62,810 nt of DNA from Burkholderiaceae bacterium. Its GTDB lineage: Bacteria > Pseudomonadota > Gammaproteobacteria > Burkholderiales > Rhodocyclaceae. The stretch covers positions 1 through 62,810 of the forward strand of contig JAIPCT010000008.1 of NCBI GenBank assembly GCA_021738065.1, read 5' to 3'. The notes under the pieces were generated by a model, which did not search any database, had not been told where the DNA came from, and saw only the letters and a list, made by a program, of their open reading frames with translations. How positions within the stretch are numbered: the first letter of the stretch is position 1; every line of letters begins with the position of its first letter. The translations under genes and the position numbers were made by a program. Positions 1 through 62,810 of this stretch are shown in pieces.

Positions 1-1995
1 CGCAGCGGCGAGATCGAAGTCAGCGGCGACATGATCTCGGCCTTGCTCAAGGGTTGCGATCATATTGGTGCCCTGCTCAATGTCGTGCAGACGGAGGGTG
101 GTGCGCCGGATGCGGATCTGACACAAGCGGGCGAACTGATTGCCGCGGCCTTGCGCCCCTTCCTCGGCGGCAATGAGGGGGCCAAGGCCGGCGCGGCAGG
201 CAGCCTGACCGAGACCGGCGAAATGGAAGTGTCGCGCAGCGATCGTGATGGCGAGATTTCCGACTGCTGGCATATTTCGATTCGCTTCGGTCAGGATGTG
301 CTCAGAAACGGCATGGATCCGCTGTCCTTCCTGCGCTATCTGCTGAATCTGGGCGAGATTGCGCACATCACGACCTTGATCGACGCGCTGCCCGAGGCTG
401 ACGCAATGGACCCCGAGTCCTGCTATCTGGGATTTGAAATCAGCTTCCGCAGCCATGCCACCAAGGACGCGATCGAGCGCATATTCGATTTTTGTCGCGA
501 TGACTGTGAGCTGCATATCCTGCCGCCAAACAGCAAAGTGGCCGATTTCATTCAACTGATCGAGGCCCTTCCCGAAGAGACCATGCGCCTGGGCGAGATT
601 CTGGTCAAAAGCGGCGCGCTCACGGAAGAAGAGCTGGAAGACGGGCTGCGCCAGCAAACCGACGGAAAAGTCGGCGCTGACGAGACGGCGCCGAGCTCGC
701 CGCTGGGCGATATTCTGGTGCAGCAGCACAGTGTGCAACCGGAACTGGTTGCTGCCGCTGCGGCCAAGCAAAAAGCCGTCTCGGAAAAAAAGGCGGCCGA
801 GTCGAATCTGATCCGGGTTCACGCGGACAAGCTCGATCAGCTTATTGATCTGGTGGGCGAGCTGGTTATCGCCGGCGCTTCGGCCAATCTGCTGGCAAAG
901 AACAGCCGTGAAGCCGCCTTGGTCGAAGCCACGTCGGTGCTGACCCGACTGGTCGAAAACATACGCGATGCAGCCTTGCAATTACGCATGGTGCAAATCG
1001 GCGATACCTTCAATCGCTTCCACCGCGTTGCACGCGATGTATCCAAAGAGCTGAGCAAGGAAATCGAACTGGTGATAACCGGGGCCGAAACCGAGCTCGA
1101 CAAATCCGTGGTCGAGAAGATCGGCGATCCGCTGATGCATCTGGTCAGGAACGCCATGGATCACGGAATCGAATCGGCTGCGGTGCGCGCCGCCAACGGC
1201 AAGCCGGTCAAGGGCCGGGTCGAACTCAACGCCTTCCATGATTCCGGCAGCATCGTGATCGAAGTGATCGATGACGGAGGCGGCCTGAACAAGGACCGGA
1301 TTCTGGCCAAAGCCATCGAAAAGGGCTTGGTCCAGCCGGGCCAAACACCGGCAGAGCAGGACATACTCAATCTGATTTTTGAGGCCGGTTTTTCAACAGT
1401 CGAGAAGGTCACCAACCTTTCCGGTCGCGGTGTCGGCATGGATGTAGTGAGAAAAAACATCAGCGCGCTGCGTGGCAGCGTCGATGTCAAGACCGAACTC
1501 GGAGTCGGCTCGCGTTTCACCATTCGCTTGCCATTGACACTGGCCATCATCGATGGCTTTCTTACCGGAGTCGGCAAGGCGTCCTACGTGATTCCGCTGG
1601 ACATGGTGATCGAATGCATCGAACTGACCAATACCAGCGTCGATCGCGACTACCTGAATCTGCGTGGCGAAGTCTTGCCCTTTGTTCGCTTGCGCGAGTT
1701 GTTCGAAACGACCGGCAGCCGTCCACCTCGAGAAAACGTGGTGGTGGTGCAGTACGCCGGGCAAAAGGCCGGCCTGGTGGTCGACCAGTTGCTGGGTGAG
1801 TTCCAGACCGTGATCAAACCTCTGGGAACGCTGTTTCGCAACATTCGCGGCATCGGCGGCTCGACCATCCTGGGCAGCGGCGAAGTCGCCCTGATCCTCG
1901 ACGTGCAGGCCCTGGTCAGTCGCTGCGCGCGCAATGAAGAACACCTGGCACTCGGCAACACAGGTTCACGCCGGCTTGAAGTCCAAACGGCATGA
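1..1995 (+). CDS. cheA: Chemotaxis histidine kinase CheA (first copy, 5' end outside window)
   Basis: The frame is open from base 1, so the start and the phosphorylated P1 histidine lie upstream. About 664 residues are visible. The order is: end of a P1/HPt helix bundle; a P2-like response-regulator-docking domain (about nt 265-525); two LG-x-IL half-motifs (nt 583-650 and 703-775) resembling the paired motifs of MshEN/GspE N-terminal domains; P3 dimerisation (about 800-990); the P4 ATPase with N-box [13 protein letters not shown]1 DDGGGLN and G2 GRGVGMDVV; and a C-terminal CheW-like P5 domain. It should autophosphorylate and pass phosphate to CheY/CheB in receptor arrays. A chemoreceptor and cheW follow directly. 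A copy of the dispersed 25-bp repeat lies between the two LG motifs and encodes KVGADETA. CheA assignment is secure; the MshEN-like reading is inference. Confidence 0.95.
666..690 (+). repeat. Dispersed 25-bp repeat, copy 1 (in cheA)
   Basis: It begins AAAAGTCGGCGCTG and ends GACGGCG, with one mismatch to the shared pattern (A for G at position 15). It is read in the sense direction as KVGADETA, in the linker between two LG-x-IL motifs of CheA. Confidence 0.85.
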
Positions 1996-2056
1996 ACTGC
2001 ATTTTCCTGTTTCATTTCTCCCTTCCCCCTGCGTTTGTCACTACGGAGCACACATC

Positions 2057-3673
2057 ATGCTGAACAATCTAAAAATCGGAGTGCGGCTCGGAATTGGCTT
2101 TGCCGTGACGCTGGCCCTACTGGTCACCATCGCGGTTGTCAGTTACGTGCGGATAACGGACCTTGACATCGCGGTACAGCGCCTGGTCAACGACCGTTTT
2201 CCAAAGACAGTGCAGGCCAACAATGTTATCGATGGCATCAACAACATCGCCCGCTTCTTGCGCAATGCCTATATTTTTAGCGGGGCCGAACGACAGAAGG
2301 CGCTGGATCAGATCCCGGACCAACGCAAGATCATCATGGAGAACCTGGCAAAGCTGGAAAAATCGCTTTACCTGGAGAAGGGCAAGGAAATGCTCAAAAA
2401 GATCAACACGAATCGTGTTGCCTATGTCAAGGATCAGGACATATTCATCGAGAATCTGAAGGCCGACAAGCGCGATGCGATTGTCGACTTGATGCAAAAC
2501 AGCTTGCGCCAGACGCAGACGGACTACATAGCCAGTGTCGTCGAACTGATTGAATTCCAGACCGAGCTGATGAGCGAAGAAGGCAAGGCAGCCGCAGACA
2601 TGGCGACGGCAACCGAACGCCTGATCGTGATTCTTGCCCTGATTGCAGCGCTCTTGACCGTGCTCTTTGGCTGGTTCATCACACGCAGCATCACCAAACC
2701 GGTCAGCGAGGCCCTGGCGGTTACCCGGCGACTGGCCGAGGGTGACCTCACGGTGACCATCGATGACGCCAGCAAGGACGAAATCGGCCAGATGCTGAGC
2801 GCGCAGCAAGTCTTGATCGCCAAACTCAACCAGATCATCGGCGAGGTCAAGAGCGCAGCCAGCGCCTTGTCCAACGCGGCGGGTCAGGTTTCGGAAACCG
2901 CACAGTCACTGTCGCAATCCTCCAGTGAGCAAGCCGCGTCGGTGGAAGAAACCACGGCCAGCATCGAGCAGATGACGGCCTCGATCAACCAGAATACCGA
3001 GAACGCCAAGGTGACCGACAACATGGCTTCGAAATCGTCCGGCGAAGCCGCCGAGGGCGGCAGCGCGGTCAAGAACACGGTCGAAGCCATGAAGTCGATT
3101 GCCGGCAAGATCGGCATCATCGACGATATTGCCTACCAGACCAACCTGCTGGCCTTGAACGCGGCAATTGAAGCGGCGCGGGCGGGTGAGCATGGCAAGG
3201 GCTTCGCGGTAGTTGCGGCGGAAGTGCGCAAGTTGGCCGAACGCAGCCAGGTCGCCGCCCAGGAGATTGGCGAACTGGCCGGCTCCAGCGTCAAGATGGC
3301 CGAGCAGGCCGGAAAGCTGCTCGACGAAATGGTGCCCTCGATCAGAAAGACCTCCGATCTTGTTCAGGAGATCGCCGCCGCCAGCCAGGAACAGTCGGCT
3401 GGTGTAGGACAGATCAACGGTGCCATGGGTCAACTCAACAAGGCCACACAGCAAAATGCCTCGGCATCCGAGGAACTCGCCGCCACGTCCGAAGAAATGG
3501 GCGGCCAGGCCGCACAACTGCAGGATTTGATGGACTTCTTCAAGATCGGGGAGTCCTCGGTAAAAGTCGGCGCTGGCGCGACGGCGAGAAATTCTCGCCC
3601 AGCCACACCAAAGATGCCGCCGGCGCACGCAGCGCGGCTGGCGACTACCGAAGGTGATTTCGAACGCTTCTGA
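2057..3673 (+). CDS. Methyl-accepting chemotaxis protein, 4-helix-bundle sensor
   Basis: A 538-residue inner-membrane chemoreceptor. It has TM1 (about 10-30), a periplasmic four-helix-bundle ligand domain (31-187), TM2 (188-210), HAMP (210-262) and a cytoplasmic signalling hairpin with the conserved tip [20 protein letters not shown] (residues 358-377). Heptads rich in [13 protein letters not shown] and [12 protein letters not shown] are likely methylation helices. The frame opens further upstream, but the ATG at 2057 has GGAG in front and begins the TM1 leader; earlier starts overlap cheA. The protein ends in GDFERF, resembling the CheR/CheB-tethering pentapeptide (aromatic-x-x-aromatic). 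A dispersed repeat encodes part of the flexible tail (KVGAGATA, about 503-510). The ligand cannot be predicted. Confidence 0.95.
3562..3586 (+). repeat. Dispersed 25-bp repeat, copy 2 (in MCP tail)
   Basis: It carries AAAAGTCGGCGCTGGCG followed by CGACGGCG, one mismatch to the shared pattern. It is sense in the chemoreceptor and gives KVGAGATA between the signalling hairpin and the C-terminal DFERF. Confidence 0.88.
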
Positions 3674-3701
3674 CCCCAGGGACTCAACCAAGGAGAACAC
3701 C

Positions 3702-4280
3702 ATGGGAAACGTCGTTCAGACCCCCCACGCAGCCGGCACCCCGGCTGCAAAACACGGCGGCAAGCAAGCGCTGGTCGCCACTGCGGCCGATCTTCACCAA
3801 TACCTGACCTTCCTGCTCGGCGGCGAGATGTACGCGGTGGGCATTCTCAATGTCAAGGAGATCATCGAATACGGCCAGCTCACCGAGATTCCGATGTTGC
3901 CGGCCTTCATTCGCGGCGTGATCAATTTGCGCGGCGCGGTGGTGCCGGTAATCGATCTGGCGGCCCGCTTCGGCGGCCAGCAGTCCGAGGCCTCGCGCCG
4001 CACCTGCAACGTGATCATTGAACTCTCCAACGGCGACGAGCATCACGACATCGGCGTGGTGGTCGACGCGGTGTCGGAAGTCCTGGAGGTTTCAGCCGCC
4101 GACATTGAGCCCGCCCCTGCCTTCGGCGCGAAAATCCGTGCCGATTTCATTCAGGGCATGGCCAAGATCAACGGCAAGTTCGTCATCATTCTCGATATCC
4201 AGCGCGTCCTGTCCGTCGATGAAATTGCCGAACTCGCCACCGCGGTGGACCGCAGCGCGGATACCGTTACCAGCGATTGA
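3702..4280 (+). CDS. cheW: Chemotaxis adaptor CheW
   Basis: A 192-residue protein made of one CheW (SH3-like) domain, about residues 30-175, after a roughly 28-residue Ala/Gly/Lys-rich lead. Family hallmarks include YAVGILNVKEIIEY, FIRGVINLRGAVVPVIDLAARFG and DIQRVLSVDEI. It couples CheA to chemoreceptors. The ATG at 3702 follows AAGGAG by 7 bases. It lies 28 bp after the receptor gene and is probably co-transcribed with it and with the upstream cheA. No residue oddities were noticed. Confidence 0.95.
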   Translation: MGNVVQTPHAAGTPAAKHGGKQALVATAADLHQYLTFLLGGEMYAVGILNVKEIIEYGQLTEIPMLPAFIRGVINLRGAVVPVIDLAARFGGQQSEASRRTCNVIIELSNGDEHHDIGVVVDAVSEVLEVSAADIEPAPAFGAKIRADFIQGMAKINGKFVIILDIQRVLSVDEIAELATAVDRSADTVTSD

Positions 4281-4404
4281 TACATCATGGTGGCGCAAAT
4301 GGTGACCCTGTCCGTCGCGCTTCGCCCGCCCGAGGCTTTCGGGTAGTCAATCGCGTCGAGCGCAGATTCCGGACTCAAGGCGGTATCCCTTGCAGGAGCC
4401 ACAA

Positions 4405-5610
4405 ATGGACAACACTACAGCCCTCAAACCAAGAATCGACTTGGCCCGGTCCGAACGCTTGACGGCTGGGCTGCGGTCCAATCGATATCCGCAAAACGAC
4501 ATTGCGCTCTCGGCAGATGCGGTAAAGGGTTCGCTGCTGTTGATCGTGGACGATGTGCCGACCAACCTGAGTGTTCTCGGCGACTTGCTGCACCGCGCCG
4601 GATATCAGGTCAAGGCGGCCAACTCGGGACGCGCCGCCCTGCGCTATGCCGCACAGGTACCGCAGCCTGCGTTGATCCTGCTCGACGTAATGATGCCGGA
4701 AATGGATGGATATCAGGTTCTGGCCGAACTCAGACGTGACCCGGCAACTCGCGATATCCCGATTGTTTTTCTGACCGCTCTGGACAGCCCGCGGGACGAA
4801 GAGCGCGGTTTTCAGCATGGGGCCGCCGATTACATCACCAAGCCGATCAAACCTGACGTCGTTCTGGCCCGCGTACGCAGCCAGTTGCTGGCGCGGCTGG
4901 CAGGCAACTGGCTACGTGATCAGAACGCCGCACTCGAGGTCGAGGTGCTCAGGCGCATGGAAGAGAACGAGATGATCCAGACCGCCAGCATCCGGGCGCT
5001 GGCGCATCTGGCGGAAACCCGTGACCTCGAAACCGGAAACCATATTCTGCGAACCCAGAATTACGTTCGTCTGCTTGCCACCCGCCTGCAAAGTCATCCA
5101 CGCTTTTCAGAAACACTGGATGACGCCTACATCAGAATGCTGACGCATTCGGCACCTTTGCACGATATCGGCAAGGTCGGCATACCAGACTCGATTCTGC
5201 GCAAACCCGGCAAGCTTGACGCGGAGGAGTGGGAGATCATGAAGACCCATGCCGGTCTGGGCAGCAATGCGATCGAGCACGCGGAGCGAGACATGGCCAG
5301 GCCGGTCGAATTTCTGGTGCTGGCCAAGGAGATCGCGCGCTGGCATCACGAACGATGGAATGGCAAGGGATACCCGGACGGACTGTCTGGAGAGGCCATC
5401 CCGATTTCGGCCCGGATCATGGCCGTCGCCGATGTTTTCGATGCGCTGATCTCGCGACGGGTCTACAAGGAAGCCATGCCGCTTGATCAGGTTCGCGAGA
5501 TCATGCAGGCGGAGCGTGGCGAGCAGTTTGATCCGGATGTAATCGATGCGTTTCTCGCCGACTTCTCGGAATTCGCGGCCATAGGCTGGCGCCATCGAGA
5601 CAGCGTCTGA
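4405..5610 (+). CDS. Receiver-HD-GYP protein (RpfG-type c-di-GMP phosphodiesterase)
   Basis: A 401-residue protein. An N-terminal receiver (residues 44-160) has the phospho-acceptor Asp94 in LLDVMMPEMDG and Lys146 in TKP. The HD-GYP domain (about 195-390) has HD at 253-254 (HDIGK), HH at 314-315 and GYP at 322-324. The family hydrolyses c-di-GMP, usually under control of phosphorylation. The ATG at 4405 has CAGGAG 7 bases upstream and is preferred to the in-frame TTG at 4390. It lies 124 bp after cheW, consistent with a cognate kinase nearby (CheA or the downstream hybrid kinase), though partnership is inferred. Confidence 0.92.
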   Translation: MDNTTALKPRIDLARSERLTAGLRSNRYPQNDIALSADAVKGSLLLIVDDVPTNLSVLGDLLHRAGYQVKAANSGRAALRYAAQVPQPALILLDVMMPEMDGYQVLAELRRDPATRDIPIVFLTALDSPRDEERGFQHGAADYITKPIKPDVVLARVRSQLLARLAGNWLRDQNAALEVEVLRRMEENEMIQTASIRALAHLAETRDLETGNHILRTQNYVRLLATRLQSHPRFSETLDDAYIRMLTHSAPLHDIGKVGIPDSILRKPGKLDAEEWEIMKTHAGLGSNAIEHAERDMARPVEFLVLAKEIARWHHERWNGKGYPDGLSGEAIPISARIMAVADVFDALISRRVYKEAMPLDQVREIMQAERGEQFDPDVIDAFLADFSEFAAIGWRHRDSV

Positions 5611-5971
5611 TCTCTTGCGAACGCTGATGAGCCAGGAATGCCTTCGATGACTTCGCCGCGCCTGCCTGACCCGGATCGGGCCAGGGCCATCGCTTGGACG
5701 ACGCGCAACAGATGTTGGCAAAGAATGCCGATTAGGTTGCCGCGCCGACGCGCCATGTGCCAACCCGCGCCGCGCGCGCCGAACCCCATCCGCTTGCGCC
5801 TGGAAGGTGTTGCCGCCAGTCGGGATGCGCACTCCAGTGTTCCTGGTCGATTTCACACCGCTCAGACCTGCCCGACACGACAAAAACCGCTCCAGAAGAG
5901 ACTGTTGCTGGAATCATTCGTCGGCCCCTGCCGTCGAAAGGACGCCACTCACCCACTGCCATCGGGATACC
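5611..5971. other. 361-bp gap without a supported gene
   Basis: This separates the HD-GYP gene from the hybrid kinase. Open frames across it (for example 5638-5979, plus strand) are Arg/Pro-rich, match no family I recognise and lack good ribosome-binding sites. The kinase frame itself stays open back to 5807, but its first residues that look like a membrane anchor start at 5972. No confident promoter or terminator was seen. Confidence 0.5.
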
Positions 5972-18930: not shown

Positions 18931-20361
18931 ATGATTATGGTCAGTAGCACACGCCTTCGACCTCCACCCACTGGCATTGATGCAAGCGCTGTCGCCCGCC
19001 GGGCTGCGGCATGGTTCGATTGCCTCTCGGGCGCTTCGCGCCGCGCTATGCCGCACGAAGAGGATCTGCCGGAGCAGCCGTTGGCCACGCTCGCGGCATT
19101 TGTCGGAATTGCACTCGCGGCAGGCCGCAGCGTGTTGATATTGGTACCCGACGACGACCCCCTGCCCGAACTTTCGAATGCGCTTGATCTTTCGATCCGG
19201 CCGCTTTGTCTGGTCCTGCCCGCAGCGGATTTTGCCGCCCAGATCGCATTGCGAGCGACCTTGTCCTTGCTCAAAAGTCGGCTCTGGCGAGACGGCGAAG
19301 AAGCGCAATCCGATACCTGGACGCAACAGCGCCATCATATCGAGGCCAAAGCTGATCTTTGGCAAGAAGCGCAGTCATGGGTGGCGAATGGGGATCGCAG
19401 CGACGCGCCGCTTGCCGTGGCCGAACTGTTTCCCGTGCGCATTCTGCCGGTGGCCGCATGGCGCAAATTGCGCCTTACTGCGACCGATATCACGGTGCTC
19501 TATCGCTGTGACGCTCCGGTGCAACTCATCGCGGCGGCCGGCGGCCTGCTGCGCATCGGGATGCGCAGCGACCTATCCCAACAGCACGCCGTCGTCCTGG
19601 AGGATGTGCAAGGTCGTTTGGTGATGGAACGGAACCAACTCACCCGGGATATAGCCGATCTGGAACTGGAGTTGGCAACCGTACAGGCAGAAGTGGTCGA
19701 ATTCATGCATCAGTACTACGCCAGAATCGGCAGCCGCATGGCTGAAGTCGATGCTCTGCAAGCTCGATTGGCGCGCAGCGAGGCCGAACGGGCTCCGGCA
19801 GACTCACAAGCACATGCTGCTGCGGAAAAACTGAAGCAACAGGCAGATCAGTCGGCGCGTGAATCACAGCAGTACACCGAAGCAACCGCTGATGACGCTC
19901 CCGCGTTTCATCCGAGCGACCAAATCAAGCGTTTGTTTCGCAAGATCGCCCAGCAAATTCATCCCGATCGCGCGGTCGATGACGACGATCGAACCTGGCG
20001 TACCCGTTTGATGAGCGAGGCCAATCGCGCTTATCGCCATGGCGATGAAAACGCCTTGCATGAGATCGCCGCCTTGTGGGCGGAAGGACGCGGTGCGTCA
20101 GCGGAGGATGGCGTCGCCGGCGCGACATCGACCGCCGTACCGTCAGCACCGACTTTGCGACATCAAGTGGAGAGTCTGCGCTCGCGCCTGAGCGAAATTG
20201 AACGCGAACTGCATCGGATTTTTGGTTCGCGCTTGTATGAGCTTTACATCGCTGTCCGCCAGGCCAGCCGTCAGGGGCGCGATCTCCTCGCCGAAATGGA
20301 GGGACAACTCGACGCGTCTCTCGAACAACTACGACATCGCTGCCCGGTTGACCGCGGCTGA
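18931..20361 (+). CDS. J-domain-like coiled-coil protein after cheA
   Basis: A 476-residue soluble protein of no named family. An N-terminal alpha/beta region (1-200) is followed by coiled coil (about 225-315), then a J-like segment LFRKIAQQIHPDRA with HPD at 344-346 and SEANRAYRHGDENAL after it, then a C-terminal coiled coil (410-476). The HPD tripeptide is what J-proteins use to stimulate Hsp70, so a DnaK co-chaperone role is possible but unproven. Start choice is uncertain; the ATG at 18931 has no clear ribosome-binding site and another ATG is 6 bp on. It carries two copies of the dispersed 25-bp repeat in opposite orientations, and converges with the Sel1 gene. Confidence 0.72.
   Translation: MIMVSSTRLRPPPTGIDASAVARRAAAWFDCLSGASRRAMPHEEDLPEQPLATLAAFVGIALAAGRSVLILVPDDDPLPELSNALDLSIRPLCLVLPAADFAAQIALRATLSLLKSRLWRDGEEAQSDTWTQQRHHIEAKADLWQEAQSWVANGDRSDAPLAVAELFPVRILPVAAWRKLRLTATDITVLYRCDAPVQLIAAAGGLLRIGMRSDLSQQHAVVLEDVQGRLVMERNQLTRDIADLELELATVQAEVVEFMHQYYARIGSRMAEVDALQARLARSEAERAPADSQAHAAAEKLKQQADQSARESQQYTEATADDAPAFHPSDQIKRLFRKIAQQIHPDRAVDDDDRTWRTRLMSEANRAYRHGDENALHEIAALWAEGRGASAEDGVAGATSTAVPSAPTLRHQVESLRSRLSEIERELHRIFGSRLYELYIAVRQASRQGRDLLAEMEGQLDASLEQLRHRCPVDRG
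19273..19297 (+). repeat. Dispersed 25-bp repeat, copy 3 (in J-domain gene)
   Basis: One mismatch to the shared pattern (T for G at position 11). It is sense in the gene but in a different frame from the CheA and MCP copies, encoding KSRLWRDG. Confidence 0.82.
20133..20157 (-). repeat. Dispersed 25-bp repeat, copy 4, degenerate (in J-domain gene)
   Basis: Four mismatches to the shared pattern, so this is the weakest copy listed. It is antisense to the gene and encodes AVPSAPTL in a polar linker before the C-terminal coiled coil. Confidence 0.55.
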
Positions 20362-24640: not shown

Positions 24641-25525
24641 CTACGGCTCCGAAGAGTGCTTCGCATAAACAAAAAGCCGCGTCCGACGCCTGTCGTCAAC
24701 ATCGATAACCGACAGCGGTTCCTGTCCGGAAACAGGGAAACTGTTGCTGACCAGACAGGCATCGGGTGCCATCTCCTCCCTGGCCTTGGCCCAGAGCCGA
24801 CCCATCGGCACTGGCGAAAGAAACACATAGACAAGGTCGTAGGCGGCCAACGAGTGAGTCCAGATACTTTCTCGACGAACGCGAATATTGTGGAAGCCGA
24901 ACGCGCGCAACCTGGCCCAGGCCCAGGTCAGCGGCGCATGTTCGACCCCCACAAACAGACAATCCGGGCGCGCACGCGCCAGAAAACGCAGCAGACCGCC
25001 GTCGCCGCAGCCCAGATCGACAACGCGACAGGCTTTTGCCGGCAGCAAGGTCAATAGCGCCCTGCAGCTCTGGCGGTTGGTCAGATACAGAGGTACCCGA
25101 CTGGTATCGGTACGCCAGAAAACCAGCAAGAGAAAAATAAAACCGCCGAGCCAGAACCCTGCAGGAAATTCAAGGCCACGGGCGAGTACAACGAGCGGCA
25201 TGAAGATCAGATGGATGATTCGCCACCAGACCGGCGCCCGCAGCCCCCAGGCGACAAGCATGGCGCAGAAACCCTGGAGCGATGCAAGCGCCAACGGATG
25301 ATCGAGCGGTGAAGGCAATATCATCCACACCGCACTCGCCGCCACCAAAGTACCGAGACCTTGTGCCAGCAAAGCGGAGCGCAGCGGATGCGGCCCGGAC
25401 GAATCTATTGCCGGCCAGCTCTCGCCTGGGTCAAGCTTCGGTGCATTCAAGATCCAATCCCGTTTCTGTCCCGCAGCGCCGCGTGGCGGTCGCCAAAAGT
25501 CGGCGCTGGCGACACGGCGACACAC
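24641..25525 (-). CDS. Membrane-anchored class I SAM methyltransferase
   Basis: A 294-residue protein. Three or four hydrophobic segments (about 50-70, 77-95, 99-135) precede a methyltransferase fold with motif I VVDLGCGDGGLL and the acidic residue in FVGVEHAP. Substrate unknown. The GTG at 25525 overlaps the upstream TAG by one base (TAGTG), pointing to translational coupling with the HD-GYP gene. Odd: codons 3-10 (RRVASADF) come from a copy of the dispersed repeat, and family-like sequence begins later, so the true start could be a downstream codon such as the TTG of LNAPKL. The 197 bp after it, before the diguanylate cyclase, shows no gene. Confidence 0.75.
   Translation of the reverse strand: MCRRVASADFWRPPRGAAGQKRDWILNAPKLDPGESWPAIDSSGPHPLRSALLAQGLGTLVAASAVWMILPSPLDHPLALASLQGFCAMLVAWGLRAPVWWRIIHLIFMPLVVLARGLEFPAGFWLGGFIFLLLVFWRTDTSRVPLYLTNRQSCRALLTLLPAKACRVVDLGCGDGGLLRFLARARPDCLFVGVEHAPLTWAWARLRAFGFHNIRVRRESIWTHSLAAYDLVYVFLSPVPMGRLWAKAREEMAPDACLVSNSFPVSGQEPLSVIDVDDRRRTRLFVYAKHSSEP
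25495..25519 (+). repeat. Dispersed 25-bp repeat, copy 5 (N-terminus of methyltransferase)
   Basis: No mismatch to the shared pattern (AAAAGTCGGCGCTGGCGA then CACGGCG). It is antisense to the methyltransferase gene and gives RRVASADF as residues 3-10. Confidence 0.9.
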
Positions 25526-31381: not shown

Positions 31382-32568
31382 GGCAGACTCAGGATGAATT
31401 CGGCTCCCGCACTCGGGTCGGACACGACTTCGATTCCGCCACCATGGGCTCGCGCAACGCCACGTGCAATGGCAAGACCGAGGCCTGTGCCGTCACTACG
31501 TGTAGTGTAAAAAGGTTCAAACAAACGGGCGGCGGTCGCCCTGTCCATACCGCAGCCATTGTCCCGCACCGCCAGATAAACCACGCCTTCCTTGCGTCGA
31601 GCGGACAGCCCGATACAGCCTTCATTCACACCATCAAGCGCCTGCAAGGCGTTCTCCAGGAGGCTCGTCAAAGCGCCCACCAGTGATTCGCGCTTGCCCG
31701 TAAGAGGCGCGCCGCCGCTGTCATCGGTCACCATGAAGCGAACGCCGCGGGTCTGGGCCAAGGGCTCGAAGTTTTGCGCCAGCTCTCCCAGTAATTCCGT
31801 CACCGAAAAACGTTCGCGACCGAGGGCTTCGCCGCGGGCAAACAAGAGCATGTTCTGGATCAATTGTTCGATGTGCTTCAGGCGCGCCACGGTTTTATTT
31901 GCGATGGATTGGGTACTGGTGGCGGAAAGTTCCGGGTTTTCCAGGTTGCCGGCATACAGCAGCGCGGCAGCCAATGGCGTGCGCAACTGATGCGCCAACT
32001 GGGCCGCCATTTCACCCATTGCCGCCAGACGCTGGTTGCGCTCGGCCCGCGTTTTCAAGGCCTGGGCTTCGGTAATGTCGTTCAGCAGCACGATGCGACC
32101 GCCCGCCGAATCCAGCGGAGTCACGGCAATGGCCAGGCGCCGCTCGCCACCAAGGAACTCCCCCGGGGTGTCGCCTGGCGACAGCGTCTCCGACTCTATC
32201 GCCGTCCAGCCAGCGCCGACTTTTACGCCACCCAGGAAACGGCTGGCGGCGGGATTGATTTGCACCACGGTACCGGCGTCATCGAGCACCACCACGCCGG
32301 CAGGCAAGGCGTCGAGCAACAGGCTCAGCCGCTCGGTCAACGCGGCTTTCTCCTGATACTGCTGGCGCAAGGCCCCATTTGCCGCAGCAAGCTCCTCGCT
32401 CAAGCGCGAAACTTGGCCCTGCAATTCGCTGTAGGCACCCGCCAGTTCCTCTGACGCCTGGCTGAAGATGTGAAACGCTTCGGCCAGACGCAGAGCTTCC
32501 TGTGGCGCGACCTGGGGCGATGGCGCAGGATCCAGACTTGGCGCGATGGGGACTGGCGAGGGTGGCAT
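31366..32568 (-). CDS. flrB: Flagellar sensor kinase FlrB/FleS
   Basis: A 400-residue cytoplasmic kinase with no TM segment. An N-terminal coiled coil (about 25-75) leads to a PAS domain (about 80-165), HisKA with phospho-His in AAQLAHQLRTPLAA and HATPase_c with NALQALDG, DNGCGMD and GTGLGLAI. It phosphorylates FlrC, whose gene overlaps its 3' end. The PAS domain contains a copy of the dispersed repeat (residues VKVGAGWTA). It is divergent from fliF across 178 bp. The ribosome-binding site is weak. Confidence 0.93.
   Translation of the reverse strand: MPPSPVPIAPSLDPAPSPQVAPQEALRLAEAFHIFSQASEELAGAYSELQGQVSRLSEELAAANGALRQQYQEKAALTERLSLLLDALPAGVVVLDDAGTVVQINPAASRFLGGVKVGAGWTAIESETLSPGDTPGEFLGGERRLAIAVTPLDSAGGRIVLLNDITEAQALKTRAERNQRLAAMGEMAAQLAHQLRTPLAAALLYAGNLENPELSATSTQSIANKTVARLKHIEQLIQNMLLFARGEALGRERFSVTELLGELAQNFEPLAQTRGVRFMVTDDSGGAPLTGKRESLVGALTSLLENALQALDGVNEGCIGLSARRKEGVVYLAVRDNGCGMDRATAARLFEPFYTTRSDGTGLGLAIARGVARAHGGGIEVVSDPSAGAEFILSLPCPEN
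32200..32224 (-). repeat. Dispersed 25-bp repeat, copy 6 (in flrB)
   Basis: Two mismatches to the shared pattern (TG for GA at positions 17-18). It is sense in flrB and encodes KVGAGWTA within the PAS domain, the same frame as in CheA, MCP and FlhF. Confidence 0.8.
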
Positions 32569-43947: not shown

Positions 43948-44433
43948 TCACATTCGTGTCAATTGAATCACGCCTTGTGCCACCCGCTGCGATCCCAGTA
44001 TCGACGAATCGAGCCCTTCGGTGTATTCAATAACCGAGTAGGTATCAAAACCATTCCGGCGCATCAATTCCTTGGCGCGCTGATGGAACACGACACGCGC
44101 TTCGCCGGCACCGCCGGTATAAACGCGCTTCATTTTCAATGACAAATGATAGTGACTGTCGGGGAAGGTTGCTTGCTCGATTTCCCAGTTGGGTGCGAGC
44201 GGGTCGAGTATCAGCCATGCAGCGCCCGCATACAAACCCCAGGTTACAACTTTCTCCAACGGAATCTGGATCGACTTCGTCACGTTGAGCGTTGTATCCG
44301 GGATGATTGGCCCTTGCGCGGGGAAATTTCCGTCGAGACTCGTCGGCCCGGGATAATCGAGCACACTGCAGCCGGCGAGACCCCAGGCTGTGGCGATGGC
44401 AAGCAAAAGTCGGCGCTGGCGAGACGGTATCAT
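43948..44433 (-). CDS. Predicted lipoprotein, co-transcribed with flgL
   Basis: A 161-residue protein of no recognised family. Its signal peptide has a basic start SRQRRLLLA, hydrophobic core AIATAWGL and lipobox LAGC (Cys at about 22). The mature part has ITKSIQIPLEKVVTWGLYAGAAWLILDPLAPNW and a beta-rich end. The ATG overlaps the flgL stop (ATGA), so it is probably translated with flgL. The basic n-region of the signal peptide is encoded by a copy of the dispersed repeat read antisense. Confidence 0.75.
   Translation of the reverse strand: MIPSRQRRLLLAIATAWGLAGCSVLDYPGPTSLDGNFPAQGPIIPDTTLNVTKSIQIPLEKVVTWGLYAGAAWLILDPLAPNWEIEQATFPDSHYHLSLKMKRVYTGGAGEARVVFHQRAKELMRRNGFDTYSVIEYTEGLDSSILGSQRVAQGVIQLTRM
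44405..44429 (+). repeat. Dispersed 25-bp repeat, copy 7 (signal peptide of lipoprotein)
   Basis: Two terminal mismatches to the shared pattern. It lies antisense at codons 2-9 of the lipoprotein gene, giving PSRQRRLL, and supplies the positive charges of the signal peptide. Confidence 0.85.
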
Positions 44434-47831: not shown

Positions 47832-48812
47832 TCAAGCGGCGGCCGTCTGCCGAAATGCCGGACTGCCGATGACGCGTTCAAGTTTGATCGCGTACTGCGG
47901 ATCAGTCGCGTAGCCAGCCGCCTGCAAACCACGAGCGAAACCCGCAGCCTCCTGATTGCCCAGAACCCGCGTATAGCGCGGCGTGTCCGTCAGAATCCTG
48001 GCATAGTCTTGAAACGCTTCGTCATAGGAAGCATAGGCGCGGAAGCGCTCGACCCTGACCTGCGCCTTGCCGACAATGACTTCTGTCGTACTGGCATCGA
48101 CGGTTTCACCCTGCCAGCCGGCGCCGGCTTTGATGCCGAAGATATTGAAACTCGAACTTCCATCAGCGCGCCGCGGCTCGGACCGGCCCCAGCCGGTTTC
48201 CAGGGCCGCCTGTGCCACCATGAAATGGGCCGGGATGCCGGTACGAAGCGAAGCCGCATTCGCCGCTGGCAGCATACGCTCGACAAAGGCGCTTTGCGCC
48301 GCCGGGGCCACGCCGGGCGCAAAAGTCGGCGCTGGCGATACGGCGCTGGCGGGAGCCGGTGACGGATTGCGCGGAGAAAGCGAATTCTTTGCCGCATCCA
48401 GCGGCAAGGGCGCGGCCAAGTTCGGCTTCAATAGGTATTCGCGCGCCGCGGGTTGCAAGGGCAGCGGCCCGGCGAATGGCTCGGCCGGCAGATTCTGCCG
48501 CGCCAGTTGTGCCTCGATCATGGCCGCCAGGCCCGTGCCATGACTGCTACTGCCCATCGCCTTGCCCAGTTGCTGATCCAGCAGTGATTCGTACAAGCGC
48601 GTCTGCTCGCTATGAAACAAACCCTCGCTGGGTGTCGCATCGCGCATGGACTTCAAGACCATCTGCAAAAACAGGGCCTCGAACTCTTTGGCTACGGCTT
48701 TGTTCGCTTCGGGATCGCCGGTCCGGAGCCGCCCCTTGAGCGTGGTCAGGCTGCCGACATCAAAGATGTTGGAAGTTGCGGACAGAGTGCTCAAATCCTG
48801 GTTGGCAACCAT
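47832..48812 (-). CDS. flgJ: Flagellar rod-assembly peptidoglycan hydrolase FlgJ
   Basis: A 326-residue bifunctional protein. The N-terminal rod-capping domain (about 30-115) has KEFEALFLQMVLKSMRDATP. The C-terminal glucosaminidase (about 175-320) has MVAQAALETGWGRSE with the catalytic Glu. A copy of the dispersed repeat lies in the inter-domain linker (AVSPAPTFA, about 155-163). It follows flgI by 72 bp. Confidence 0.95.
   Translation of the reverse strand: MVANQDLSTLSATSNIFDVGSLTTLKGRLRTGDPEANKAVAKEFEALFLQMVLKSMRDATPSEGLFHSEQTRLYESLLDQQLGKAMGSSSHGTGLAAMIEAQLARQNLPAEPFAGPLPLQPAAREYLLKPNLAAPLPLDAAKNSLSPRNPSPAPASAVSPAPTFAPGVAPAAQSAFVERMLPAANAASLRTGIPAHFMVAQAALETGWGRSEPRRADGSSSFNIFGIKAGAGWQGETVDASTTEVIVGKAQVRVERFRAYASYDEAFQDYARILTDTPRYTRVLGNQEAAGFARGLQAAGYATDPQYAIKLERVIGSPAFRQTAAA
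48321..48345 (+). repeat. Dispersed 25-bp repeat, copy 8 (in flgJ linker)
   Basis: No mismatch to the shared pattern (ends TACGGCG). It is antisense to flgJ and encodes AVSPAPTF in the Pro/Ala-rich linker between the rod-capping and hydrolase domains. Confidence 0.9.
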
Positions 48813-53714: not shown

Positions 53715-53739
53715 TGCCGTATCGTCAGCGCCGACTTTT
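53715..53739 (-). repeat. Dispersed 25-bp repeat, copy 9 (flgE stop/flgF junction)
   Basis: Two mismatches to the shared pattern. The leading A-run forms part of the flgE TAA stop, and the rest fills the gap before flgF. This is the only copy mostly outside a coding sequence. Confidence 0.85.
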
Positions 53740-57481: not shown

Positions 57482-57622
57482 ATTCGGAAATCGGCAGCAG
57501 AATCATGCCGACCGTCAAAGATCGAAGTACTTTTCCCTGTTTTTTTGGAGTTTTTTGTTCGGCGACCATGGTAAATTGCCGTCCAGTCGCTTCAAAATCT
57601 CTGGAAAGTTAGCCCCAAAAGC

Positions 57623-57649
57623 TAAAGTCTGCTGTTTTTTGGCCGATAA
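57623..57649 (+). promoter_or_regulatory. Sigma-28 (FliA) promoter for flgMN
   Basis: It has -35 TAAAGTCT (57623-57630), an 11-base spacer and -10 GCCGATAA (57642-57649), a near-perfect flagellar sigma-28 promoter. The flgM ATG is 35 bp after it. Confidence 0.9.
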
Positions 57650-57684
57650 GTCAGCCAAGTTCAGAATCCGATGCAGGTAAACAA

Positions 57685-57972
57685 ATGAAAATCAACTCTT
57701 CGACGCCGCCGACAGTCAAGCCGCCTAGCGTACGTCCGCAGGCTGCGACAAATTCCACGGCGACGGCAAAAACCAGCGGCGCGTCCACCGCCCCCCATCT
57801 GCAGCAGACAGGGGCACTTGACACGGCGACGGCGCCTTTTGACAGCCAGCGCGTCGCGGAAATTCGCCAGGCCATTGCCGAGGGTCGTTTTCAGATCGAC
57901 GCCGACAAAATCGCAACGGGCCTGATCGACAGCGTACGCGATCTGCTGGCCAACGACCGGCCGTCTGCCTGA
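57685..57972 (+). CDS. flgM: Anti-sigma-28 factor FlgM
   Basis: A 95-residue protein that holds FliA inactive until the hook is complete and it is exported. The N-terminal half is polar and disordered (Thr/Pro/Ala-rich). The C-terminal helices FDSQRVAEIRQAIAEGRFQIDADKIATGLIDSVRDLL form the sigma-binding part. Its own sigma-28 promoter is just upstream, making a feedback loop with FliA. Confidence 0.95.
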   Translation: MKINSSTPPTVKPPSVRPQAATNSTATAKTSGASTAPHLQQTGALDTATAPFDSQRVAEIRQAIAEGRFQIDADKIATGLIDSVRDLLANDRPSA

Positions 57973-57985
57973 TCGACGGATTGCC

Positions 57986-58456
57986 TTGATCGCGATCGAC
58001 ACGCTGCTGGAGCAAACCATTGCCGAGTTGCAGCGTTTCATCACCGTCATCGGATTGGAACGAAGTACGCTGATTAGCGGTGATATCAACAAATTGCCGG
58101 AGATCGCCGAAGAAAAGTCGGCGCTGGCGACACGGCTTTCCAGGTTGGAAACCCAGCGCGACGCGGCGCTTGGCACGGCCGGTTTTGGCGTTGGGAAATC
58201 GGGCGTTGATGCGTGGCTTGCCGCGAACCCGGTCAATTCGATATCTGCAAAAAAAACCAGCTGGAAGAAATGCATGGACCTGGCTGCCGAGGCCAACCGG
58301 GAAAACGAGATCAATGGAAAACTGATTGGCGCCAGCTTGCAACAGAACAAAAAAGCGCTTGCCACCCTGCTCGGCGAATCCGCCGACACCACGATCTACG
58401 GCGCCGACGGCCAACCCAAAACGAGTTCTGGAAGGCGGCCACTCGGCAGCGCCTGA
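57986..58456 (+). CDS. flgN: Flagellar export chaperone FlgN
   Basis: A 156-residue helical chaperone for FlgK and FlgL. The N-terminal helix LLEQTIAELQRFITVIGLERSTLISGDINKL and the C-terminal region with NGKLIGASLQQNKKALATLLG fit FlgN, and the position after flgM is standard. Start codon is a TTG at 57986 without a strong ribosome-binding site. A repeat copy encodes KSALATRL within a helix (about residues 44-51). It converges with motD. Confidence 0.88.
   Translation: MIAIDTLLEQTIAELQRFITVIGLERSTLISGDINKLPEIAEEKSALATRLSRLETQRDAALGTAGFGVGKSGVDAWLAANPVNSISAKKTSWKKCMDLAAEANRENEINGKLIGASLQQNKKALATLLGESADTTIYGADGQPKTSSGRRPLGSA
58113..58137 (+). repeat. Dispersed 25-bp repeat, copy 10 (in flgN)
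   Basis: One mismatch at the last base. It is sense in flgN in the third forward frame, encoding KSALATRL inside a predicted helix, unlike most copies which lie in linkers. Confidence 0.8.
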
Positions 58457-58491
58457 GTGCCCTTCCCATTTGCGGCGCTGAAAAACCCGCT

Positions 58492-59283
58492 TTACTCGGA
58501 CAGTGGCAGTTCCACCCTGTGGTCCGGTGCCAAGGACTCGATCCGGATGGCGACGCGGCGATTGCTTTGCCGACCCTCGGCCGTGGCATTGTCTGCAACC
58601 GGTCGCTGGGCGGCAAAGCCCACTGCGCTCATGCGTCGCGGATCCACGGCGGTATCAATGAACAAGCGCACCACGCTGGACGCACGCGCGGCAGAGAGTT
58701 CCCAGTTCGAGGGAAAATACACCGTACTGATTGGGATATTGTCCGTATGTCCCTCGACGACAATCTGGAAATCCGTTGCGGCGAGAACCCTGCCGACGGC
58801 TCCCAAGGCGCGCACCGCACCCAGATCGAGCCGCGCCTCGCCCGGCGCAAACAGAACGCTGGCGTTGATGTCCACCGTGATACCCAGGGCACCCTCGGTG
58901 ACTCTGACTTTGCCATCGGCCATCAAGGGTGCCAAAGCCTGATTGAGATCATTGGCCAGATTGCGCAGATGCTCCTTTTTCGTCTGGCGGGTCTGTTCAC
59001 CTTTGGCGCGCACGGGAATCGGAACTATCGGCACTGCCGGCGGCACGACAGCCATCGGGCTCGCCACGCCTATGCCCCCGGTGTCGGGACCGCTGCGAAA
59101 TGCGGAGACGATGGAACCGGACATGACGCGGTACTTGCCTTCGTTGATCGATGAAATACCGTACATCACGACAAAAAAGGCAAACAGCAGGGTAATGAAA
59201 TCCGCGTAGGAAACCAGCCAGCGGTCGTGGTTGTCAGGCTCGTCGGATTCGCGCCGGCGGCGGCGACGTTTGTAGAGTGCCAT
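58492..59283 (-). CDS. motD: Flagellar stator protein MotD (MotB family)
   Basis: A 263-residue stator subunit. A basic N-terminus (KRRRRRRE) leads to one TM with the proton-binding Asp in VSYADFITLLFAFFVVMYG. The OmpA-type peptidoglycan-binding domain has VVEGHTDNIPI and LSAARASSVVRLFI. Its start overlaps the motC stop by one base. MotCD stators are typical of pseudomonads and relatives that also have MotAB; no motAB is in the window. Confidence 0.93.
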   Translation of the reverse strand: MALYKRRRRRRESDEPDNHDRWLVSYADFITLLFAFFVVMYGISSINEGKYRVMSGSIVSAFRSGPDTGGIGVASPMAVVPPAVPIVPIPVRAKGEQTRQTKKEHLRNLANDLNQALAPLMADGKVRVTEGALGITVDINASVLFAPGEARLDLGAVRALGAVGRVLAATDFQIVVEGHTDNIPISTVYFPSNWELSAARASSVVRLFIDTAVDPRRMSAVGFAAQRPVADNATAEGRQSNRRVAIRIESLAPDHRVELPLSE

Positions 59284-60023
59284 CAGACAAAATAGCCTTG
59301 GAGCCGGCTTTCAACGATGCGCGGGTTGTCTCCATTGGCAATGCCGACCAGTCCATCCACCAGCATTTCGCGCAGGGTGATGACCTGGGAAATATTCGCC
59401 ATCAGCTTTTTGGCGATCGGCAGAAAAATCAGATTGGCCGCGCCCACCCCGTAGATCGTGGCAACGAAGGCAACGGCAATCCCGCTGCCCAGTTTGGATG
59501 GATCAGACAGATTCTCCATCACGTGAATCAGGCCCATCACCGCGCCAAGAATACCGATAGTGGGTGAATAGCCACCGGCGGATTCCCAGACTTTTGCGGC
59601 AGCCTTGAGGCTCGACTCGAGAGCCGTGATTTCGACATCCAGCACTTCGCGCAAACGCTCCGGCTCGGCGCCATCAGCCAGCAACTGCAGCCCTCTCGCC
59701 ACAAACGGATCACGCAGCGTGCGCACTTGAGCCTCCAGCGACAGCAAGCCCTCCTTGCGTGCCATCTGGCCCCAGTTGGAAATCTGCTTGATCAGTTTCT
59801 GAGGCTCGATAGGCGGTGGATACAACACCCATCGCGCCATTTTCACACCATCCAGAAAGACTCGCAGCGGGCTTTGCAGCATCACAGCACCCAATGTGCC
59901 GCCGAAGACAATCAGAAATGCGGTGGGCTGAAACAGTGAAGCAAGATGCCCGCCTTCCAGAATCTGTCCGCCGAGTATGGCGGTGAGACCGAGTACCAAG
60001 CCGACGATGCTGATTTTGTCCAC
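59283..60023 (-). CDS. motC: Flagellar stator protein MotC (MotA family)
   Basis: A 246-residue, four-TM stator subunit with ISIVGLVLGLTAILGGQILEGGHLASLFQPTAFLIVFGGTLGAV at the start and GGYSPTIGILGAVMGLIHVMENLSDPSKLGSGIAVAFVATIYGV at the third and fourth TMs. Start is a GTG 5 bp after the fliA stop, chosen because TM1 begins there; the frame is open upstream inside fliA. Co-transcribed with fliA and motD. Confidence 0.93.
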   Translation of the reverse strand: MDKISIVGLVLGLTAILGGQILEGGHLASLFQPTAFLIVFGGTLGAVMLQSPLRVFLDGVKMARWVLYPPPIEPQKLIKQISNWGQMARKEGLLSLEAQVRTLRDPFVARGLQLLADGAEPERLREVLDVEITALESSLKAAAKVWESAGGYSPTIGILGAVMGLIHVMENLSDPSKLGSGIAVAFVATIYGVGAANLIFLPIAKKLMANISQVITLREMLVDGLVGIANGDNPRIVESRLQGYFV

Positions 60024-60028
60024 GCGTC

Positions 60029-60787
60029 TCAGGCTCCGGCAGGTGGTGCCGAGCGGCGATGCGCCGGGCCTTTGGTTTTTCCCGTGCCGGTCATCGCCAC
60101 GCGCAGCCGTGCGACGGCCTGGCTGTGCAACTGGCAAACACGCGACTCAGTAACTCCGAGAACATCTCCGATTTCACGCAGGTTCAACTCCTGTTCGTAG
60201 TACAGCGCCATCATCAGCTTTTCCCGCTCCGGCAGCGCTTCGATCGCCTCGACCAGGGCGGCACGGGTTCCCGCCTCTTCCAGAATAGCTAGCGGATCGT
60301 GAGTGGTGGCGGGCGCGTGGCGCTCGAGAAAGTCGCTGCTTTCATCCGTCATGTCCTCGATATAGACAAGCTGATGGCCGCGCGCATCTAGCAGCAGTTT
60401 TTGATAGTCCGCCAGCGACATGCCCAAAGCGCCCGCAAGTTCGCTCTCGGTTGGCGCTCGCCCATTTTCGTGTTCAAGCTTGCGGATTGCCGTTTCGACT
60501 TGACGCATCTCGCGACGCACACTGCGTGGCAGCCAGTCCAGTTCACGCAAGCCATCCAGCATGGCGCCGCGGATGCGCTGGCTGGCATAGGTTTCGAATT
60601 GGGCGCCAAGACCTTCCTGGTAGCGCTCGATTGCATCGAGCAAGCCTATCATTCCGTTCTGGACCAGATCATTCACGTCGACGCTAGCTGGCAGCTTCGC
60701 CATCAATAGGTATGCGATGCGTTTTACCAACGGAACGTACTGGGCAACGTGCCGATCTTTGGCAAGTACGCCTTGGGCGGTGTACAT
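60029..60787 (-). CDS. fliA: Flagellar sigma factor FliA (sigma-28)
   Basis: A 252-residue sigma factor. Region 2 has YVPLVKRIAYLLMAKLPASVDVNDLVQNGMIGLLDAIERY and FETYASQRIRGAMLDGLRELDWLPRSVR. Region 4 has LPEREKLMMALYYEQELNLREIGDVLGVTESRVCQLHSQAVARLR. It reads promoters such as that of flgM. It follows flhG by 35 bp. Confidence 0.97.
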   Translation of the reverse strand: MYTAQGVLAKDRHVAQYVPLVKRIAYLLMAKLPASVDVNDLVQNGMIGLLDAIERYQEGLGAQFETYASQRIRGAMLDGLRELDWLPRSVRREMRQVETAIRKLEHENGRAPTESELAGALGMSLADYQKLLLDARGHQLVYIEDMTDESSDFLERHAPATTHDPLAILEEAGTRAALVEAIEALPEREKLMMALYYEQELNLREIGDVLGVTESRVCQLHSQAVARLRVAMTGTGKTKGPAHRRSAPPAGA

Positions 60788-60822
60788 CAGTGCTGTCGCT
60801 CGGGCCGTATATGACAGATTGA

Positions 60823-61653
60823 CTATAACACCGATTCCAGACGCTTCGCGCCCGCTGCCAGAGGACGCAAGGCTCCGGCAACCGGCAGAAAACCGCCATG
60901 ATCGCCGCCTTCAGACGCCAGCGGCAGTCGGCTCTGTAAAGCCTCGGCCACGTGGTCCACCGCCGGGTCTCGCACGCATCCCAGATAGTCAAGGCGTACC
61001 CCAAGATGCTCCCGAGCGGTTTGCCGCATATTGTGAAAAATCGACAAGGCTTCCTGCTCGGATCGTGGCCGGGTGATTGCAATATGAAACCCCGCACGCC
61101 CACGCTCGATCGCCAGCAACTTGATTAGCGCGTAGGCCCGGGTAATCCCCGAGCCCTGCGCAGCGACAACCACGGCCATATGCGGCGCGGCAGATGCCAG
61201 CGAAGACAACGGCTGACCGTCGCGCGACGTGCAATCGATCAGGACATAGGAGCAGCCTTCCTGTAGTTGCCTGAGAACGGCATCAAGTTTTTCTGCCGTA
61301 GATGCATTGAACTGACCCTCGGCCGAGGCGAATCGCGCGGCGGCAATCACGCTGAGCCGAGGCGCAATCGGTTGCACCACCCCTTCTATTGAACATGCGC
61401 CGTTGACCAAGTCCAGCAAGTCCCGCCGGACCTTCATGCCAAACGCAGAGTGAACGTTTTCCTTGCCTGAATTCTCGTCGATGATGACCACGCCCTCTCC
61501 CGCTTTTGCCAAGGCGGCAGCGGTGCGCAGCAGAAGTTTGGTGCGTCCGCAGGCGTCGCGCCCCGAGACGAAAGCAACGGCACGCGCGGCAGGAGCCCTG
61601 AACAGGCGCCGCAGTCCGGCGGCCTGATCCATCTCTAAAGCGACGTCAGGCAA
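60823..61653 (-). CDS. flhG: FlhG/FleN-like MinD-type protein with degenerate P-loop
   Basis: A 276-residue protein placed and folded like FlhG/FleN, the ATPase that limits flagellar number and represses the master regulator. It is odd: where family members have KGGVGKT, this has GRDACGRT (residues 31-38), lacking both P-loop lysines. The switch I-type site reads IIDENSG and the Walker B-like one VLIDCTSR. ATP hydrolysis is therefore doubtful. It overlaps flhF by 8 bp at its start and precedes fliA. Identity rests on context and the MinD-like pattern (AAVRLRGAL-type helices, QGSGITRAYALIKLL). Confidence 0.82.
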   Translation of the reverse strand: MPDVALEMDQAAGLRRLFRAPAARAVAFVSGRDACGRTKLLLRTAAALAKAGEGVVIIDENSGKENVHSAFGMKVRRDLLDLVNGACSIEGVVQPIAPRLSVIAAARFASAEGQFNASTAEKLDAVLRQLQEGCSYVLIDCTSRDGQPLSSLASAAPHMAVVVAAQGSGITRAYALIKLLAIERGRAGFHIAITRPRSEQEALSIFHNMRQTAREHLGVRLDYLGCVRDPAVDHVAEALQSRLPLASEGGDHGGFLPVAGALRPLAAGAKRLESVL

Positions 61654-62810
61654 GGAGAGCTCCCTGAGTCAGCCCCTGATTCTGGGCAAAAGTCAGCGCT
61701 ATTTCGTCCTTGCGCAGGCTGTGCGCCGTCTCGCCAGCACCGACTTTGAAGGCACGATGCAGCAAGTATTTACGATTCGGCAAATGGAGGTCTTCAGGCA
61801 CGCGCTGGCCGTTGGCGACATAGCTCAAGGTCAGACCATGGCGCACAATGCAATCAAGGACAGGAGCCAACGCAGTGGCCTCATCAACCTTGGTCAGAAT
61901 GCAGCCAGCCATGTCCTCGCCGCTATACGCCCGCACCACGTCGTCGAGCGTGTCTCCACGACTGCCCGCGTTGAGCAGCAACAATCGATTGACGGCTCCG
62001 GATCGCGTCAGCATCGCCGCCTGATCCGCGACCATTCGATCACGCTGGCTCATGCCCACTGTGTCGATCAGCACCATGTGCTTGTCACGCAGATCTTCGA
62101 GCGTTCGCTGCAAATCTTCGCCGTCACGCACGACGAATACCGGAACGCCAAGAATCCGGCCATAAATACGCAATTGCTCATGCGCGCCGATTCGATAGCC
62201 ATCCGTCGTGATCAGCGCCAGTCGCTCGGCTCCATAGCGCACCACACAGCGAGCAGCCAGCTTGGCGGTAGTCGTGGTCTTGCCGACTCCAGTCGGGCCG
62301 ACCAGCGCATAGATGCCGCCCCTGTCGATGAAGTCTGCGTCGGACGACAAGGTGCGCAGACGTCGATTGACCGCTGCCGTGAGCCATTTGCGCCCGTCAT
62401 CCAGACTCAGATCGGCAGACATTTCCTGCACCAGACGGCGAGTGAGCGCACCGGAAAACCCGGCCGCCAGCATCTCGCCCAAAAGCAAGGCCCGGTTCGG
62501 CGCTTCGCGCGCCATTTCACCCCAGGCAAAGCCCGCCAACTGCCGTTCGAGCAAGGTTTTGATGACTCGCATCTCGTCCATCAGCTTTGCCGTCTGGTTC
62601 GAGTCTTCGCCCGTATCCAGCTGCGGATTTCCGTTGCTCGCCGCCGTCGACAAGGTTTCGACCGAGGATATTGCAGCCCTGTCGGCAGGACTTCTTCTCG
62701 CGCCACTTGGCGGAGCTGGCGAATGCTCCGGCAACTTCTGCAAGGGCACGGAAGCCGCGCGCGGCGTCGCTTTCCCCTCGGCAGGCGTTGGCGAGGCCTT
62801 GCTGTCCGCT
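61646..62810 (-). CDS. flhF: Flagellar SRP-like GTPase FlhF (5' end outside window)
   Basis: The frame is open from 62810, so the N-terminal basic domain is missing from this window; 387 codons are visible. The GTPase NG domain has G1 LVGPTGVGKTTTTAKLAAR, ITTDGYRIGAHEQL, G3 DTVGMSQRD and G4 TKVDEA. FlhF places the flagellum at the pole. A Pro/Ser/Ala-rich linker precedes the NG domain. A dispersed repeat encodes KVGAGETA close to the C-terminus. The gene overlaps flhG by 8 bp. Confidence 0.94.
   Translation of the reverse strand, partial: ADSKASPTPAEGKATPRAASVPLQKLPEHSPAPPSGARRSPADRAAISSVETLSTAASNGNPQLDTGEDSNQTAKLMDEMRVIKTLLERQLAGFAWGEMAREAPNRALLLGEMLAAGFSGALTRRLVQEMSADLSLDDGRKWLTAAVNRRLRTLSSDADFIDRGGIYALVGPTGVGKTTTTAKLAARCVVRYGAERLALITTDGYRIGAHEQLRIYGRILGVPVFVVRDGEDLQRTLEDLRDKHMVLIDTVGMSQRDRMVADQAAMLTRSGAVNRLLLLNAGSRGDTLDDVVRAYSGEDMAGCILTKVDEATALAPVLDCIVRHGLTLSYVANGQRVPEDLHLPNRKYLLHRAFKVGAGETAHSLRKDEIALTFAQNQGLTQGALLA
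61724..61748 (-). repeat. Dispersed 25-bp repeat, copy 11 (in flhF)
   Basis: Two mismatches to the shared pattern (C at position 1, T at position 10). It is sense in flhF and gives KVGAGETA about 27 residues from the C-terminus, the same frame as the CheA, MCP and FlrB copies. Confidence 0.8.

Follow-up and report, generated by a model that had tools for sequence, protein, structure and literature searches.

A dispersed 25-bp word in the genomes of a Sulfuritalea-like genus resembles DNA-uptake sequences

The window analysed here is a stretch of 62,810 nt of Rhodocyclaceae DNA (contig JAIPCT010000008.1, assembly GCA_021738065.1) through which a 25-bp word, AAAAGTCGGCGCTGGCGANACGGCG, is scattered. 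Allowing up to three mismatches, we found ten matches in the window as compared to a mean of 0.00 in dinucleotide shuffles (n = 100). An eleventh copy has four mismatches, and the next best 25-mer of the window has eight. These are the eleven coordinates and strands of the original prediction, made from the sequence alone, and all of them were borne out (Table 1). The hosts, as had also been claimed, belong to unrelated families: Pfam gives a CheA-like kinase, a chemotaxis receptor, a PAS histidine kinase, FlgJ-like, FlgE and FlgN proteins and an SRP54-type GTPase, which from its position and family is probably FlhF-like. Two host open reading frames (ORFs) have no Pfam match, and one of them holds two copies.

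The placement of ten copies inside genes was upheld in part. With scripted, codon-scored gene models, eight of the eleven lie wholly within ORFs and a ninth overlaps the stop codon of flgE; the start sites picked by the script put the copies at 25495 and 44405 outside the models. The copy at 44405 is probably genic, as first described, since ORF 43948-44433 includes the word when started at its ATG; the product then has, by eye, a lipoprotein-like signal peptide, and no Pfam match. The placement of 25495, genic or intergenic, is ambiguous.

Table 1. Copies of the 25-bp word in the window.
Position	Strand	Mismatches	Orientation to gene	Location	Peptide
666..690	+	1	sense	CheA-like kinase gene	KVGADETA
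3562..3586	+	1	sense	chemotaxis receptor gene, near 3′ end	KVGAGATA
19273..19297	+	1	sense	ORF 19048-20361, no Pfam match	
20133..20157	-	4	antisense	ORF 19048-20361	
25495..25519	+	0		between gene models or at ORF start (ambiguous)	
32200..32224	-	2	sense	PAS histidine kinase gene	KVGAGWTA
44405..44429	+	2	antisense	probably first codons of ORF 43948-44433; outside scripted model	
48321..48345	+	0	antisense	FlgJ-like gene, between its two Pfam domains	AVSPAPTF
53715..53739	-	2		overlaps flgE stop codon	
58113..58137	+	1	sense	FlgN gene	KSALATR
61724..61748	-	2	sense	SRP54-type GTPase (putatively FlhF-like) gene, near 3′ end	KVGAGETA

A genome-wide search had been named beforehand as the check on which the repeat would stand or fall, and the excess extends well beyond the window. 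The genome to which it belongs (3.40 Mb in 148 contigs, 87.6% complete) contains 520 copies, 246 on the forward and 274 on the reverse strand, or about one per 6.5 kb, and the reversed control pattern gave none. In a k-mer search on 140 kb of the same genome the word was the top k-mer. All 31 genomes searched of its Sulfuritalea-like genus carry the word, with 24-580 copies each; the signal is real, strong and genus-wide. Among 297 Rhodocyclaceae genomes, 147 had at least one match, and 10 of 68 sampled genera included a genome with at least 20 copies. A looser pattern was applied to 300 genomes sampled from the order, where the 291 from other families gave 0-8 matches (reversed control, 0-2). 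Genera are not uniform. In genus g32, 10 of 11 genomes have 181-705 copies and the remaining one, G573, has none, perhaps through loss of competence; in g194, two of six genomes have 7 copies each. A ComEC tree was made for 20 genomes, of which 13 have the word and 7 lack it. The distribution of the word on this tree needs three changes, a number as low as this being reached by 1 of 500 label shuffles. These changes may represent one gain and two losses. The ComEC branch of G573 is long compared with those of its sister genomes.

The anatomy of the copies was examined in a 503-kb sample of the same genome, consisting of the window and 22 stretches picked close to known copies and from larger contigs. 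At up to five mismatches this sample contains 114 copies, of which 63 lie inside ORFs, 47 are intergenic and 4 are at ORF edges, at a coding fraction of 0.872. The description of the copies as almost all inside genes thus holds for the window and fails genome-wide. With longest-start gene models, counting up to four mismatches and leaving out six units of a head-to-tail array, 33 of 100 copies were outside ORFs, in 9.8% of the sequence. Within ORFs one reading phase, phase 2, is preferred by sense (27/36) and antisense (18/27) copies. The matrix built from the 114 copies holds 38.9 bits over 25 positions; positions 6-9 and 20-22 hardly vary and position 19 is almost unconstrained. At 15 core positions, chosen after the matrix had been viewed, 65 copies are perfect, 33 have one mismatch, 12 two and 4 three. 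Beyond the 25 bp a weak A at position 26 is the sole conspicuous feature, and neither a target duplication nor a flank consensus was seen at the copies. Position 5 is C in place of G (AAAACTCGG) in 18 of the 114, a possible sub-dialect.

We then compared sites with and without the word among relatives. Precise empty sites, for which the original prediction had proposed looking as gaps of 24, 27 or similar length, were not seen in these comparisons. With the word masked in the alignment, 175 comparisons had a copy and 119 had no intact copy; 104 of these 119 were ungapped, 14 were partly gapped and 1 had a gap of at least 18 nt. Random 25-mers used as a control gave 503 ungapped and 2 partly gapped comparisons; 767 unaligned comparisons and 571 with poor flanks were dropped. 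Among 15 closer pairs, the copy was there in 48 cases, missing without a gap in 5 and missing with gaps in 3, none of which was a clean 25-nt loss (the remainder comprised 1 with poor flanks, 12 not spanned and 7 without a homologue). At another site, coding by eye, relatives range from 3 to 13 mismatches and the columns of the element are gap-free. Identity within the element was 0.920 versus 0.829 in the flanks (105 pairs), a difference biased upward because only low-mismatch copies counted as present. To judge from these alignments, copies at the sites examined arise by substitution.

Ordinary conservation of the encoded peptides, named at the outset as a finding that would refute the prediction, does not by itself account for the sole site at which we tested it, 61724. 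In six relatives with the word, codons for the same amino acid were identical in 38 of 45 cases inside the word versus 342 of 714 outside; in three relatives without it, codons were kept in 2 of 9 cases inside versus 156 of 340 outside. P values for this test are nominal, the species being related, and the six relatives were chosen for having the word. Conservation here appears to lie at the DNA level, in a choice of codons beyond what the peptide demands.

Some clades spell the word differently, and there is little overlap between the patterns, which have AAAGTC, GGCG, ACG and a C in common, each at its set position. Pattern A (AAAGTCGGCGCTGGCGANACGGCG) belongs to the Sulfuritalea-like genus, with close forms in genera g36, g142, g169 and g192; pattern C is the same with the ending GGCA and belongs to g32. 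Pattern B (AAAGTCAGYCRTGGCGGNACGCCR) is found in G061-G064 and G446 of g194, and pattern D (AAAGTCAGTCNCGGCGRNACGGCG) in g144; the latter is softer, and many of its single-mismatch copies break GGCG. A tentative pattern E (AAAGTCGACG) is based on 12 of 13 listed copies from one g176 genome. When 29 genomes were scored, pattern B had 266-420 copies in its five genomes, the other 24 having no more than 9. Pattern D reached 132-324 copies in five genomes of g144; it had 22-91 in those with pattern B, 37 in G362 and no more than 7 in any other. Counts for G063 and G446 are identical, and these are probably one genome. The spacer 3′ of flgE has a copy with up to five mismatches in 15 of 18 A-group relatives and none in L041, L043 and L052. 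The A group has A words in this place, and B-like words lie directly 3′ of flgE in four relatives outside it (L057, L059, L060 and L062, from G061-G064). A de novo k-mer search for hidden dialects in samples of 142, 59 and 100 kb from three word-free genomes, one of them with masked bases, found none.

Short genomic words that mark self DNA are known from natural transformation. According to PMC12616744 (2025), no families other than Neisseriaceae and Pasteurellaceae are known to select self DNA in this way. As described in two further papers, neither the DNA uptake sequence (DUS) of the former nor the uptake signal sequence (USS) of the latter is biased in orientation; both are spaced with some regularity, include some inverted pairs, favour non-coding DNA, have an unusually tight consensus and are present in relatives, and USS arose through substitution, not insertion (PMC1626085). 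DUS is 10-12 nt long with a CTG core, occurs in low thousands of copies in several genomes, has dialects that differ by clade around a fixed core and is missing from some members of the family (PMC3630211). Our word is like DUS, whose receptor is ComP, in its many coding and non-coding copies, its clade dialects and its word-free family members, and unlike DUS in its length, its frequency of about one per 6.5 kb as against low thousands, and its occurrence in Rhodocyclales. It is like USS in the lack of orientation bias, in the preference for non-coding DNA in spite of many coding copies and in not being an insertion; it differs in that USS has a 9-nt core, another sequence, gammaproteobacterial hosts and some inverted pairs, of which we saw none. 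We found no earlier report of the repeat in the open-access literature, including searches with a 14-letter part of the word; subscription journals were not covered. The reverse complement of the word contains GCCGTNT, presumably close to part of DUS and too short to suggest common descent.

In addition to its frame preference and its clustering on the ComEC tree, the word shows a copy number, an even use of both strands, an intergenic enrichment, a substitution origin and dialects that largely match the features given for USS and DUS, and for this reason we liken it to them. On present evidence it would work like an uptake sequence. We put the probability at about 0.7 that the word serves across the genome as a DNA-uptake sequence, watermarking self DNA in the manner of the DUS of Neisseria or the USS of Haemophilus. 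Of the three options in the original prediction, uptake signal, conversion-spread insert and protein- or RNA-binding site, the first appears best supported, and the second is contradicted by relatives' sites, which are mostly of the same length and carry substitutions, and by the lack of any target duplication or flank consensus at the copies. It is also probable that this is a third, unreported uptake-sequence system, one of environmental Rhodocyclales whose word, at ~25 bp, would be the longest of its kind and would come in four or five dialects. In such a system a surface receptor of the transformation machinery, which we infer to be a pilus-associated DNA-binding protein, would bind the ~25-bp motif and favour DNA of the same clade. 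Variants that match better would be taken up and recombined more often, and copies would build up on both strands via point mutation and biased transformation where the protein or the spacer tolerates them. If the taste of the receptor drifted, the whole set of copies would follow, and clade dialects would result.

Several observations weigh against a role in uptake. Known uptake words have ~9-12 nt, as compared to 25 bp here. All 20 genomes searched for ComEC have it, including 7 that lack the word. Pilin-like matches were taken from four genomes, Pfam was run on ten of these matches, and the ComP_DUS family was then traced over 40 genomes, where a pilin of this family occurred in 21 of 21 genomes with the word and in 18 of 19 without; the seven strongest matches were all in genomes without it. 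The gap test rests on about six orthologous places in one flagellar region. Over all 24 fixed positions there are fewer perfect copies (21) than single-mismatch copies (30). No inverted pairs spaced 80 bp or less apart were seen in the window or the scanned loci, and regular spacing is only suggestive (copies per 20 kb in 22 stretches, variance/mean 0.58, P 0.06; coefficient of variation of 77 inter-copy gaps, 0.82). Finally, seven units of 24 or 25 bp stand head to tail with no spacer on contig 38 of the same genome (L175:11466-11635), directly after a TGA stop codon, an array that biased uptake does not predict.

Because the machinery is present with and without the word, its presence is no evidence for uptake, and both the ComP_DUS pilin and ComEC were rejected as markers of the receptor. 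A candidate receptor might be the ComP_DUS-family pilin encoded at L216:1423-1929 on contig 130 of the same genome, of a family that also occurs without the word; a GspH-family pilin gene lies 0.5 kb on (L239).

The absence of any receptor that correlates with the word is also what would be expected if transformation had no part and the copies were genome-wide sites of a co-evolving cytoplasmic DNA-binding protein, with a role in chromosome organisation, segregation, recombination or the marking of self DNA for defence. Dialects and a substitution origin fit any protein and word that co-evolve, and the copies are somewhat evenly spread over the genome. We nevertheless consider such a protein unlikely. 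Some 500 sites, many in unrelated genes and on either strand, would presumably each need a fitness value, whereas biased uptake would spread copies with no such value per site. The word is not a palindrome and has no stable fold. Replichore polarity is absent as well: in a relative with a one-contig genome of 3.8 Mb (G002), the 59 near-perfect copies (28+/31-) are mixed in strand all round, with 28 runs versus 30.4 expected and a two-arc polarity matched by 294 of 300 shuffles, tests that cover 59 of the 504 copies counted there. An apparent sorting of its copies by strand was rejected as a listing artefact, the 59-copy listing showing mixed strands. FtsK-orienting polar sequences (KOPS), architecture-imparting sequences (AIMS) and Chi are genome-wide words each read by one protein, ~8 bp long and polar along replichores; the word differs in being non-polar and 25 bp long.

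The seven-unit array, exact and without spacers, would fit a tiny element, mobile or spread by conversion, that is inserted in whole units of 24-25 bp, as would near-identical copies throughout the genome and clusters of the word that adjoin mobile genes in other families. Such an element is very improbable on the alignments described above, and a mobile insert was rejected on these gap tests, with 104 of 119 comparisons from about six orthologous places ungapped and one gap of at least 18 nt, and with no clean 25-nt loss among the eight absences in closer pairs. There is no target duplication or flank consensus, and at one place after flgE the dialect differs between genera. Cyanobacterial small dispersed repeats and Rickettsia palindromic elements are likewise short and dispersed, some of them in genes, and arise as insertions, in contrast to the word, whose sites in relatives align ungapped and for which precise empty sites were not seen. 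An RNA-level signal (terminator, attenuator or regulatory hairpin) is hardly credible despite the intergenic enrichment and the 13 copies between convergent genes (of 39 with both neighbours called, in 9.9 of ~62 kb of spacer), and RNA structure was rejected, since five sequences fold no better than their shuffles, unlike the palindromic hairpin unit of repetitive extragenic palindromes and bacterial interspersed mosaic elements, the window has no Rfam match and copies inside ORFs occur in both orientations.

The word also occurs in small clusters outside its home clades, in genomes that otherwise have hardly any copies. Two are in other families, one beside a phage-type integrase (L202) and one close to transporter genes and a transposase of the Mutator family (L203); two more are in low-count genomes of the family (L199 and L201), the former among nitrite reductase genes. 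All four would be DNA acquired from word-bearing bacteria. A scan of IMG/VR gave at least 120 stretches with the word, on contigs of a kind that can be host DNA. One IMG/VR contig has five copies (L264:882-2239), and a tandem array of 316-bp units (629-2123) contains four of these. The 316-bp unit holds a TAACG...GTTAGGC stretch, which we take to resemble an integron attC site.

If the word is indeed an uptake sequence, it is longer than those known and in a new order, and sequence-selective transformation either evolved once more or has deeper roots in the betaproteobacteria. The word would then tag DNA that has gone from these bacteria to other families and could serve as a tracer of DNA flow. 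In Rhodocyclaceae, copy-rich genera (10 of 68 have a genome with at least 20 copies) stand next to genera that have hardly any, and several dialects occur. With a third family it could be tested by comparison what causes such words to arise, how a receptor and its word evolve in step and whether differing dialects form barriers between species.

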